Shown here: piece after piece, positions 7,355-9,524 of the stretch
Numbering within the stretch: the stretch's first letter is position 1
Layout: each line of letters starts with the position of its first letter
NCBI GenBank assembly: GCA_009377645.1
Contig: WHTQ01000044.1
Location: 1-35,182, forward strand
Direction of reading: 5' to 3'
Length of the DNA: 35,182 bases
Source of the DNA: Micromonosporaceae bacterium
Lineage (GTDB): Bacteria; Actinomycetota; Actinomycetes; Mycobacteriales; Micromonosporaceae
Made by a program: the position numbers and the translations under genes
Notes under the pieces: model-generated
What the model was told of the DNA's origin: nothing
The model's database searches: none
What the model saw: only the letters and a program-made list of their open reading frames with translations

Positions 7355-7921
7355 TCAGCTCGGGTCGTTTCCGGGGCGCCACTTGATGCCGCAGCCCACG
7401 CTCGGGTGGTGCGGTTCGGGCACCGGCTGGCCGGCCAGCGCCAGGTCGGCCGCCGCCCGCAGCGAGGACCCGGTCGGTGCTTGGCGGCCCGGCCGGGAGC
7501 CGTCGAACTGGCCCCGGTAGACCAGCCGGCGCTGCCCCTCGTAGAGGTAGAAGTCCGGCGTACAGGCGGCTCGGTAGGCCAGCGCCACCTGTTGGTCTTC
7601 GTCGACCAGGTAGGGGAAGCTGAACCCGGCCCGTTTGGCCTGCGCCACCAGGTGCGGCCGGTCGTCATCCGGGTAGCTGGCCACGTCGTTGGAGCAGATG
7701 CCGACCGTGGCCAGCCCGCGCCCCGCGTACTCGTCTGTGAAGGCGCCGAAGGCGGACTCGACATGCTGCACGTACGGGCAGTGGTTGCACAGGAACGCGA
7801 CCAGCAGGGCCGGCGCGTCGGCGAGGTCGGCCAGCCTAACCTCGCCCTCGCCGCCCGCCCGGGGCAGCGTGAAGTCCGGGGCGGGGGAGCCGAGCGGGGC
7901 CATGAACGAGTGGACAGCCAT
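7355..7921 (-). CDS. Thioredoxin-fold (AhpC/TSA-type) protein
   Basis: A 188-residue peroxiredoxin/thioredoxin-like protein. It opens with LGSPAPDFTLP, the standard start of the AhpC/TSA fold, followed by LLVAFLCNHCPYVQHVE, in which CNHC is a CxxC redox pair at the start of the first helix. GICSNDVASYPDDDRPHLV, FPYLVDEDQQVALAYRAACTPDFYLYE (with the cis-proline TPDFY) and LVYRGQFDGSRPG complete the domain. It belongs to the cytosolic NHCPYV class of thioredoxin-family proteins whose substrate is not settled. The ATG at 7921 is preferred over ATG 7930 because GGGAAGA stands about 9 nt from the former and abuts the latter. It is convergent with tatC. Confidence 0.88.
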   Translation of the reverse strand: MAVHSFMAPLGSPAPDFTLPRAGGEGEVRLADLADAPALLVAFLCNHCPYVQHVESAFGAFTDEYAGRGLATVGICSNDVASYPDDDRPHLVAQAKRAGFSFPYLVDEDQQVALAYRAACTPDFYLYEGQRRLVYRGQFDGSRPGRQAPTGSSLRAAADLALAGQPVPEPHHPSVGCGIKWRPGNDPS

Positions 7922-7953
7922 GGCGCCCATTCTTCCCGACCGGGCGTGCTGGA

Positions 7954-8029
7954 TACCATCGAGCCTGCCGACGCTGCGAGGAGGTGACGTGTGTACCGCG
8001 AACTCACGGAGCTGATGGCCGGGCGCTGA
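7954..8029 (+). promoter_or_regulatory. Promoter, ribosome site and 12-codon reading frame
   Basis: TACCAT (7954-7959) is a good -10. It is followed by GAGGAGG (7978-7984), one of the strongest Shine-Dalgarno matches in the window, and 6 nt later by a GTG (7991) that opens a 12-residue frame, MYRELTELMAGR, ending at TGA 8029. The signals are those of a real gene start, but the product is tiny. It could be a leader peptide for the structured RNA behind it, or the surviving 5' end of an interrupted gene. Confidence 0.45.
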
Positions 8030-8052
8030 GGCAGGGGACGGCGCCGACGCCA

Positions 8053-8302
8053 GTGTGGCTGGACTGACTGACACCTACCGGTGGGGAGCGGGGAAGCCTC
8101 CTCCACAGTGACCGGGACAATCCGACAACCCCGGTCGTGGTTCGGATTCAGGGATGGAACAGGCCCTGATGAAGCTGGAACCGGAAGTAATCGCTGACCC
8201 CAGAGGTACGGCGGTGAACGGGTCCCTCGTCCGGCCGAGCCTGGGACCGGAAACGGGAGAGCGAACGGAACCCTGCGCTCCGAGTTGAAGATCCACTTCA
8301 AC
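8053..8302 (+). ncRNA. Hairpin-rich RNA region resembling group II intron domain I (fragment)
   Basis: No protein is supported here on either strand. Four stems follow one another: CCAC + GACCGGG with CCCGGTC + GTGG (8103-8140); TCAGGG with CCCTGA (8148-8169); GGTCCC with GGGACC (8221-8248), with an inner CTCG/CGAG pair; and GTTGAAG with CTTCAAC (8284-8302). GTGTG at 8053-8057 fits the 5' intron rule GUGYG. GAAGCC, a hairpin, CAGGGAT..GAACA..CCCTGAT and then TGGAACC come in the order remembered for domain I of bacterial group II introns. No reverse transcriptase and no domain V are found, so if it is an intron it is a truncated one. Identification is from memory and needs a covariance-model search. 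Confidence 0.35.
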
Positions 8303-8318
8303 CCGGAGGAGCGCAGCC

Positions 8319-8541
8319 ATCAGCAGGCGTGCCCAGAACAGATCTGCCCAGAACCAGGGCTTTACATGTGACAATTGCGGCCTCGACCACCGGCCCGGCA
8401 AGGGCTTGGTGCTGGTGCACCGGTGCGAGCGGTGCCGGGTGGTCCGGGCCAACCGGCTGGCGGTCGACACCGCCCCAGCCGGACGACCTGGACGCGATCG
8501 CCCGGCTGGGGCCGACCGGTTGGCGAGCGCGAGACGGTTGA
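8319..8541 (+). pseudogene. Broken RNHCP-type zinc-ribbon gene
   Basis: Reading from 8319 gives SRRAQN..QGFTCDNCG, the opening of RNHCP-family zinc-ribbon proteins, then directly GLVLVHRCERCRVVRANRLAVD, which resembles their C-terminal part. The middle, including the RNHCP..C..HVD core that names the family, is missing. Near 8475 the frame must shift by one base to continue as PQPDDLDAIARL, ending at TGA 8541. The expected start codon is ATC (8319-8321) instead of ATG, although GGAGGA stands 8 nt upstream. An internal deletion, a frameshift and a lost start together indicate a decayed gene. The function of intact members is unknown beyond likely zinc binding. Confidence 0.5.
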
Positions 8542-8600
8542 CCGGGAGGCCGGCGTCTTCGCCGCTGCGGCGGCCCAGCGTATTCCGGCCGCAGGTGCGG

Positions 8601-8606
8601 TAGCGT
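8601..8606 (+). promoter_or_regulatory. -10 hexamer of the leaderless lipid kinase gene
   Basis: TAGCGT ends 6 nt before the GTG at 8613, with no ribosome-binding sequence between. Confidence 0.5.
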
Positions 8607-8612
8607 GCTGTC

Positions 8613-9524
8613 GTGAAATCCCCTCGGCCGGACGGACCGGTGGCGGTGCTCACCAACCACACCGCCGGCCGGGGCCGGTACGGCCGGCTGCTGCCGGCGG
8701 TGCGGGAACGGCTCGCCACAGCCGGCCGCCCGCTGCGCCCGCTGGTCGCCGACAGCGCGGAGGCCGCCGAGGCGGCCTGCCGGGACGCGGTCGCGGACGG
8801 TGCCAGCGCGCTGGTCGCGGTCGGCGGTGACGGGACCCTGCACGCGGCGCTGCAGGCGCTGGCCGGCACCGGGGTGCCGCTCGGGGTGGTGCCGGCCGGC
8901 ACCGGCAACGACCTCGCCACCGGCCTCGGGTTCCCGGCGGCGCCGCTGGCCGCCGCCGACGTGGTCGCCGCCGCCCTGCGGGCCGGCACCAGCCGGCGAG
9001 TGGACCTGGCCCGGGTCACCGGCCCGGACGGGACCCAGCGCTGGTTCGGCGGGGTGCTGGCGGCCGGGTTCGACGCGATAGTGAACGCCCGGGCGAACCG
9101 GCTGCGCTGGCCTCGCGGGGACCGCCGCTACGACCTGGCGATCTTCCTGGAGCTGGTGCGGCTGCGCCCGCGCGCCTACCTGATGCACCTGGACGGCGTG
9201 CCGCACCCGCTGTCGGCGGTCCTGGTGGCGGTCGGCAACACCGCCAGCTACGGCGGCGGGATCCGGATCTGCCCGGACGCGGACCCGACCGACGGGCTGC
9301 TCGACGTGGTGGTCGGCGGCCAGATGAGCCGGATCACCCTGGCCCGGCTGCGGCCGCACTCGTACCGGGGGACTCACGTGCACCACCGGCTGGTCACCAG
9401 CTACCGGGCCCGGCAGGTGCGGCTGGCCGCCGACGGGATCACCACCTACGCCGACGGGGAGCGCTGCCTGCCGCTGCCCGCCACGTTGGCCGCGGTGCCA
9501 GGCGCGCTGGCCGTCCTGACGTAG
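8613..9524 (+). CDS. Diacylglycerol/lipid kinase family protein
   Basis: A 303-residue member of the DagK/YegS/sphingosine-kinase catalytic family, which phosphorylates membrane diacylglycerol or related lipids. It begins with the nucleotide-binding strand VAVLTNHTAGRGR. The signature GGDGTLHAALQAL has GGDGT at residues 71-75, and GVVPAGTGNDLATGLG follows (GTGND loop). The C-terminal beta domain has GFDAIVNARANR, VAVGNTASYGGGIRICPDADPTDGLLDVVV and ADGERCLPLP. Length and motif order are those of a complete enzyme. The GTG start is supported by a TAGCGT -10. The stop codon TAG forms part of the next gene's -10, which places helY immediately behind it on its own promoter. Confidence 0.92.
   Translation: MKSPRPDGPVAVLTNHTAGRGRYGRLLPAVRERLATAGRPLRPLVADSAEAAEAACRDAVADGASALVAVGGDGTLHAALQALAGTGVPLGVVPAGTGNDLATGLGFPAAPLAAADVVAAALRAGTSRRVDLARVTGPDGTQRWFGGVLAAGFDAIVNARANRLRWPRGDRRYDLAIFLELVRLRPRAYLMHLDGVPHPLSAVLVAVGNTASYGGGIRICPDADPTDGLLDVVVGGQMSRITLARLRPHSYRGTHVHHRLVTSYRARQVRLAADGITTYADGERCLPLPATLAAVPGALAVLT

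Follow-up and report, generated by a model that had tools for sequence, protein, structure and literature searches.

The stretch of DNA analysed here (the window: 35,182 nt, positions 1-35,182 of the forward strand of contig WHTQ01000044.1, Micromonosporaceae bacterium, GCA_009377645.1) carries a short leader open reading frame (ORF), a structured RNA element and a decayed gene of the RNHCP family (PF12647) (Table 1). The Shine-Dalgarno site GAGGAGG and the leader ORF, 12 codons from GTG 7991 (VYRELTELMAGR) followed by TGA, are present as described in an initial annotation of this DNA. The series of stems listed there proved real and part of a structure with strong covariation in relatives; its motif CAGGGAT..GAACA..CCCTGAT is a hairpin occupying the place of 16S helix 42 (helix numbers, here and below, are those to which we take the stems to correspond). 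The feature runs beyond 8302, up to the start codon at 8319-8321. The -10 box reported upstream of it was not recovered: a scan of 7900-8620, limited to the consensus promoter type, returned no promoter site, and no terminator was found.

The frame opening at ATC 8319 begins with an RNHCP N-terminus, continues with the last third of the family and then departs from the family sequence; the middle with the RNHCP motif is absent, and an intact domain was not found. A PF12647 search of the window's genome returned only a gene on another contig and not the window copy. The genome's other RNHCP gene (G000:C190 86428-86697, L012) belongs to another subfamily and is an open frame. The RNA of the window is intact by model score (252 bits, with the sequence itself in the training set of the model) while the downstream gene is not, and because this gene is decayed the RNA may control nothing there.

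Table 1. Parts of the leader and the downstream gene in the window; R1 is the covariance model built from 30 aligned leaders.
Feature	Position	Strand	Basis
Shine-Dalgarno site of the leader ORF, GAGGAGG	7978-7984	+	sequence
Leader ORF, 12 codons, stop TGA 8027-8029 just 5' of P1	7991-8029	+	sequence and stop position in leaders
Whole conserved RNA element, 252 bits with R1 (sequence among the 30 training leaders of R1)	8028-8321	+	
Closing stem P1, 5' strand CAGGG, partner 8271-8275	8032-8036	+	covariation, RNAalifold
Stem P2, 5' strand CCAG, partner 8241-8244	8050-8053	+	97.5% of cells paired; 3 of 4 pairs changed on both sides
Stem P3, 5' strand, at the place of 16S helix 28, partner 8229-8236	8057-8064	+	alignment for part, the rest from sequence
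Helix-29-like 5' strand CCGGT, partner 8180-8184	8078-8082	+	99.3% of cells paired; 5 of 5 pairs changed on both sides
Helix-30-like stem, short-loop cap where 16S carries the rest of the head	8085-8104	+	alignment, R1 match to 16S
Helix-41-like stem, ACAGTG...ACAA	8105-8136	+	Rfam match, alignment, 16S column comparison
Helix-42-like hairpin, CAGGGAT..CCCTGAT	8148-8169	+	Rfam match, alignment
TGAAGCTGGA, helix-29 3' strand, AGTAATCG, helix-43-like hairpin, CGGTGAA	8170-8218	+	most 16S-like stretch
Stretch AGUAAUCG	within leader RNA		
Small hairpin P4, length variable	8247-8256	+	reading of leaders; poorly aligned, 55% of cells paired
P1 3' strand CCCTG, partly re-paired in the base of P5 when the 3' end is folded alone	8271-8275	+	
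Hairpin P5, covers Shine-Dalgarno GGAGG 8305-8309	8273-8316	+	predicted fold
AUC start codon of the RNHCP gene	8319-8321	+	comparison of starts
Decayed RNHCP-domain gene, extent of the open frame	8319-8603	+	comparison with relatives

Likeness to 16S rRNA and conserved structure

The covariance-model match that the initial annotation suggested looking for does exist, and it is to 16S rRNA: in a permissive Rfam scan of 7900-8620 the best hit was SSU_rRNA_bacteria at 8063-8233 (41 bits, E 2.3e-10, model positions 909-1387 with the middle skipped). The locus is not a 16S rRNA gene, the match to RF00177 being below the gathering score of 50 bits and not full-length. No Rfam family reached its gathering score in the whole window, and no riboswitch family was found at E up to 10 in 7900-8620. 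Matches in that interval to JUMPstart, two microRNA families and Bcj14 were below their gathering scores and were taken as chance; the JUMPstart-like one (8576-8607, +, 23.9 bits against a gathering score of 35) lies upstream of a frame starting at 8613. When 11 other leader-bearing loci were scanned in the same permissive way, four reached E 0.01 for an SSU model and the remaining seven did not. SSU matches in other leaders scored 65 bits (L029) and 56.5 bits (L103), both above the gathering score of 50, and 48 bits (L085), and the L071 leader matched the microsporidial SSU model with 42.1 bits.

The reverse test gave the same relationship. R1, built from leaders only, matched five places in one genome (G015; 62.5 bits, R1 positions 46-199) and, with stricter filters, gave matches in 157 of 396 genomes of the phylum including the window's own. 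Among the matches listed, only the window's element (252 bits) scored above 78.4 bits; the other genomes gave 56 to 78 bits, mostly over R1 positions 34-201. Eight R1-matched loci (L005, L110, L113, L120, L129, L151, L153 and L154) were all full-length bacterial 16S according to Rfam (1016 to 1608 bits), true 16S loci matching the Rfam model over 1-1533.

Nine 16S loci were aligned with 12 elements, the alignment being fitted to R1. The majority base was equal in 80 of 122 shared columns, and 52 columns had the same base with a conservation of 80% or more in each of the two sets; the likeness is best preserved in ACAxTGGC..ACAA, GTTCGGAT, TGAAG..GGA, AGTAATCG and CGGTGAA. From its 5' end, the element passes through P1 and P2, then through what we take to be the helix order of the 16S 3' major domain (28-29-30-41-42-29'-43-28'), and back to P2 and P1. 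It differs from that domain in having a short cap in place of helices 31-40, in helices 41 and 42, which are shortened or altered, and in P1 and P2. The comparison shows that the centre of the element is a miniature, in structure and in sequence, of the 16S 3' major domain core (helices 28, 29, a capped 30, a short 41, 42 and 43) and that P1 and P2 are its own framing stems around this 16S-like junction. Helices 28, 29, 30, 41, 42 and 43 are also what we take to be the minimal binding site of ribosomal protein uS7, which would make this the site that the element resembles. As in rRNA-mimicking leaders, a conserved structured RNA resembling a protein-binding site of rRNA lies just 5' of a start codon.

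The structure was examined in a MAFFT alignment of 30 leaders (28 from the best 80 RNHCP loci, the window and G006), using 54 pairs drawn from one sequence. In this alignment 87.5% of the cells were paired compared with 69.8% after shuffling, changes on both sides were seen in 44 of the 54 pairs, and covariation was 0.521 compared with 0.213 (sd 0.010) in shuffled alignments; none of 500 shuffles reached any of five structure measures. Structures slid by 1 to 3 columns kept 29 to 47% of the cells. RNAalifold run without an input structure returned 49 pairs, 37 of them changed on both sides, which were mostly the same stems minus P4 and P5; these two hairpins align poorly (55% and 58% of cells paired). 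The stems noticed in the window are hence kept in relatives with compensatory changes. Folded as a single sequence, the element has an unremarkable energy (z -0.76, with 45 of 200 shuffles at least as stable), and it is therefore comparison alone that supports the structure.

Association with RNHCP genes and distribution

R1 was run over 96 sources, among them RNHCP loci defined as the best 80 of 249 relatives with one genome per species scanned. At 40 of these 80 loci an element of at least 75 bits lies directly upstream of RNHCP, and 12 of the 40 stand outside the R1 training set (L031, L032, L036, L043, L045, L046, L075, L086, L095, L062, L040 and L084; 75 to 207 bits). Two more loci gave weak matches: L072 (30.6 bits, in pieces, with insertions) and L064 (26.8 bits, cut by the contig end). 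At the first of these, from a WOR-3 metagenome-assembled genome (2459-3003), one of the insertions apparently falls in the AGU/AAUCG stretch. No match was found at the RNHCP start in the remaining 38 of 80 loci. A DNA search of 61 related genomes gave matches in six, the window's own included. In two of them (G047 and G006) the similar stretch lies just 5' of an RNHCP-family gene, and in G001, from the window's genus, an RNHCP frame directly follows the first part of the element, the rest of which is absent. In related genomes the element was absent at 13 of 15 RNHCP places and present only in G047 (contig 53) and G006. RNHCP does not need the element, given these 13 places and the 38 loci without it.

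Record titles place the element in Actinomycetota, Bacillota, Chloroflexota, Planctomycetota, WOR-3, Pseudomonadota, Candidatus Uhrbacteria and Chlamydiota, which makes eight phylum-level groups if a plasmid from Chlamydiota is counted. Of these, Chloroflexota, Planctomycetota, WOR-3 and Uhrbacteria are each represented at full strength by one metagenome-assembled genome. Some contigs may be mis-binned, as the 'Roseburia' locus L055 groups with Paenibacillus. On the Candidatus Protochlamydia plasmid the element scores 220.8 bits with RNHCP directly downstream. The element on this plasmid (Candidatus Protochlamydia naegleriophila pPNK, L176 3689-4310) is full; the RNHCP gene is absent from the incomplete annotation table, and its C-terminal part looks frame-shifted. 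R1 found no element at RNHCP loci from Vibrio, a Streptomyces plasmid, Nonomuraea and a phage record. No RNHCP relative was confirmed on viral contigs; six phage-collection records, all from faecal samples, gave an RNHCP match, the best of them (L178) being without the element.

Whole genomes behind RNHCP loci contained one full-length element each in 11 of 12 cases (129 to 254 bits), and the twelfth, behind a locus without the element (L078), contained none. G453, G457, G460 and G464 gave extra matches of 60-65 bits, as 16S genes do, and G453 two more of 19 bits. The element is sparse, with 4 of 295 in the Streptomyces genus sample and 5 of 299 in the Bacilli class sample (centres included, stricter filters). 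The elements found through the RNA model in these samples have RNHCP directly downstream in all seven cases listed besides the two centres; L164 and L165 among them repeat L079 and L028, leaving five new ones. In a phylogeny of 79 RNHCP proteins (without L064; few columns, many unresolved forks) presence of the element requires 9 changes, compared with 26.7 for shuffled labels, and none of 500 shuffles was as low. The neighbours of leader-bearing RNHCP genes have no shared theme, the commonest family having matched four times (76 of 93 mechanically picked ORFs, 36 loci). At two loci other RNA matches were noted 3' of RNHCP: a second, very weak element match about 0.9 kb downstream in Maritalea mobilis (L095 4236-4400; 12 bits, E 0.026) and, about 1 kb away in a Dehalococcoidales genome (L033 4358-4478; 77.9 bits), a molybdenum cofactor riboswitch, which is a known family.

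These comparisons identify the element as a conserved cis-acting leader RNA of RNHCP-domain genes. Of the free-standing regulatory RNA with a leader peptide that the initial annotation had offered as one possibility, the conserved cis element and its short upstream ORF stand, but the RNA is attached to the RNHCP gene downstream. In relatives this gene belongs to PF12647 (107 bits in L048 and 108.2 bits in L056 against a cut-off of 24), which is not a known ribosomal protein family. The proteins compared are small and share conserved Cys and His residues as well as the RNHCP stretch. A confident structure prediction (pLDDT 88.2, pTM 0.80) had no match in Foldseek with an E of 0.001 or lower and reached a VIA-align Z of at most 2.9; PDB sequence searches returned none at E up to 5 for one RNHCP protein and a best E of 0.048 with a profile. 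This absence of a structural match does not establish a new fold. On a mobilizable plasmid of Vibrio coralliilyticus (NZ_CP009266.1, L139 2980-4411) the RNHCP gene overlaps the start of rsgA, which encodes a 30S-dependent GTPase. A plasmid of Streptomyces sp. NBC_00984 (L175 3989-5459) carries an RNHCP-RNHCP tandem followed by FBP_C (PF16571), a family presumably linked to EF-G-binding FusB proteins, near a Tn3 family transposase and an integrase. In tblastn searches over the loci, RsgA was adjacent to RNHCP only in Vibrio, with a fragment about 3 kb off in L081, and FBP_C was near it only at the Streptomyces plasmid locus. As hints of a ribosomal role for RNHCP these two operons are thin: one locus each, both without the element.

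Leader ORF, Shine-Dalgarno hairpin and start codon

The leaders are built alike. A short ORF runs up to the closing stem; next come the 16S-like core, a hairpin covering the Shine-Dalgarno (SD) sequence, and the RNHCP start codon, which in Actinobacteria is AUC. A stop codon ends within 8 nt placed at the first G run of P1 in 43 of 47 leaders, whereas windows shifted upstream gave a count of 16.7 on average and of 26 at most. The four leaders without a stop there are L080, G006 and, with stops a little more to the 5' side, L033 and L100. A canonical start preceded by a loosely defined SD-like core was found for 34 of the 47 leader ORFs, which are 7 to 14 codons long (the length of 16 computed for L035 includes a stop). 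Among the remaining 13 leaders, several seem to use non-canonical starts: ATT in L055 and L056, CTG in L031, L036 and L046, and ATC in L081. In the lineages with such apparent starts, RNHCP itself begins with ATG or TTG. The leader peptides share no common sequence.

When the 3' end was folded alone, between 4 and 10 of the 10 SD-window bases were paired in the predicted hairpin of every leader except L029, whose segment was wrongly cut. The hairpin takes up at least 2 nt of the P1 3' strand in 42 of 45 leaders, with the partners next to the start codon; in L049 the P1 3' strand pairs in another hairpin. Random 5-mers placed at the P1 3' strand are expected to overlap the SD hairpin in 30.1 of 45 leaders, so this excess is modest and the P1/P5 overlap is weak evidence for a switch. 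Competition between P1 and P5 is possible in the predicted folds.

RNHCP starts with ATC in 17 of 19 element-bearing actinobacterial loci, the exceptions being L104 (ATG) and G006 (GTG). At the other element-bearing loci the start is ATG, GTG or TTG where it can be placed, which was not the case for L049. Twenty actinobacterial loci with ATC were compared, three of them Streptomyces loci that lack the element; at none of the 20 is there a canonical in-frame start in the 45 nt 5' of the ATC or between the ATC and the first FxC of the domain. These three, in which the ATC start is kept and no element was found, are S. bohaiensis (L053), S. spiramenti (L063) and S. lonarensis (L067), and they indicate that the AUC start and the element are separable.

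Possible modes of control

The leader probably switches RNHCP translation on and off, and the 30S-head-binding protein that would read it is probably uS7 or RNHCP. We favor, with a probability of about 0.45, a translational switch that is coupled to the leader ORF and responds to a protein able to bind the 30S head, with unassembled uS7 as the likeliest candidate. Unassembled uS7 would bind the mini-head as it does on 16S rRNA; its binding together with the passage of ribosomes over the leader ORF beside P1 would set how often the SD hairpin opens, and opening would set RNHCP translation. RNHCP would then be a small zinc protein acting on the 30S head or its assembly, and in Actinobacteria the AUC start would keep basal initiation low and may confer sensitivity to initiation fidelity. 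A coupling switch readable by uS7 is the simplest reading because a copy of what we take to be the uS7 site sits between the leader ORF and the covered SD sequence. According to the accessible parts of PMC10931766, uS7 is a primary binder of the 16S 3' major domain, recognises 16S rRNA and its own mRNA through the same determinants, and in E. coli represses only coupled translation across the rpsL-rpsG gap. More tentatively, the leader may be a portable mRNA sensor made from the uS7-binding 30S-head core that reports head assembly or initiation, with RNHCP as an undescribed 30S-head factor; the inputs of such a sensor, proposed with the same reserve, would be free uS7, initiation fidelity via the AUC start and ribosome passage over the leader ORF.

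The main rival to the uS7 switch, which we regard as rather unlikely, is autoregulation by RNHCP: the protein would bind the 16S head and, in excess, the copy in its own leader, shutting down its own translation as ribosomal proteins do. RNHCP is the only gene found downstream of the RNA, its product is small with conserved Cys, His and RNHCP stretch, and the arrangement would follow the r-leader pattern in which an rRNA-mimicking leader precedes the gene for the binder of the copied site (accessible parts of PMC7247131). Yet RNHCP is only a putative RNA binder whose predicted structure has no confident match, and the element is missing at about half of the RNHCP loci. It is a good deal less probable that the mini-head or the AUC codon senses not a free protein but initiation fidelity or another ligand of the 30S head (a drug, tRNA or the state of IF3). 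The AUC starts at 17 of 19 element-bearing actinobacterial loci and the lack of canonical in-frame starts nearby in the 20 AUC loci would fit such a sensor, as would the apparent non-canonical leader ORF starts in some other lineages and a G-G-A, invariant in the leader alignment, at what we take to be the place of 16S 1337-1339. On 16S rRNA, G1338 and A1339 contact the initiator tRNA, and an excess of IF3 inhibits non-canonical starts (accessible parts of PMC2268962). Outside Actinobacteria, however, the placeable RNHCP starts are AUG, GUG or UUG, and three Streptomyces loci have AUC without the element.

Two further readings are contradicted by the data. The decayed gene in the window and the unremarkable folding energy would suit a functionless, degenerate 16S fragment or a chance similarity between genes, but most stems, among them P1 and P2 outside the 16S match, show compensatory changes in several phyla, and the element has a fixed position before one gene family, which leaves this reading a very small probability. 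Smaller still is that of an old gene interrupted by the relic of a truncated group II intron, proposed in the initial annotation for the hairpin-rich RNA beginning near GTGTG: no group II intron model matched 7900-8620 even at E 10, none reached its gathering score in the whole window, and the likeness is to 16S rRNA.

Several known systems share parts of this arrangement. Translational attenuators controlled by an upstream ORF, such as the erm leaders, also combine a short ORF with a Shine-Dalgarno sequence in a hairpin; the RNHCP leader peptides, however, have no common sequence, and an rRNA-like domain lies between ORF and hairpin. The AUU start codon of infC, which is controlled by IF3, is likewise a conserved non-canonical start in a translation-related setting, whereas here the codon is AUC, in RNHCP of Actinobacteria, and a dependence on IF3 is only conjectural. 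In the E. coli str operon, the uS7 site between rpsL and rpsG is likewise intercistronic mRNA resembling the 16S uS7 site, and controls coupled translation (accessible parts of PMC10931766); in contrast, the RNHCP leader contains an entire multi-helix domain that an rRNA covariance model can recognise, lies before a gene that is not known as ribosomal, has a short leader ORF as its upstream cistron and occurs in several phyla. The r-leader candidates that imitate rRNA for L20, eL15, S15 and S4 are also conserved leaders resembling rRNA binding sites; in the accessible parts of PMC7247131 they precede ribosomal protein genes, whereas our element precedes RNHCP (PF12647), which sets it apart from autoregulatory leaders of ribosomal proteins. 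The terms 'protein S7' and 'uS7' are absent from the main text of that paper, and the element is not described in the accessible parts of PMC7247131 or PMC11109978. The latter motif screen reports 107 protein-binding candidates, in the supplement of which the motif could stand unnamed. Full-text searches for rRNA-mimicking leaders, with supplements outside their scope, found no published description of the element, and a full-text search found no paper on RNHCP biology, its two hits being chemistry by title. Leaders that mimic rRNA are already known; what sets this one apart as new is how large the copy is, the non-ribosomal nature of the gene and the range of phyla.

An entire rRNA sub-domain with a multi-helix junction in an mRNA leader, present in several phyla, would be an unusually complete case of rRNA mimicry. 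For structural and binding studies the element offers a naturally occurring, minimal form of a central part of the small subunit, and the conserved AUC starts provide a set for testing control based on the start codon. For the RNHCP family, which has been named only after a sequence motif, the element points to a function at the 30S head; if the leader is indeed a sensor of head assembly or initiation, the target of RNHCP would be revealed by the RNA that controls it.
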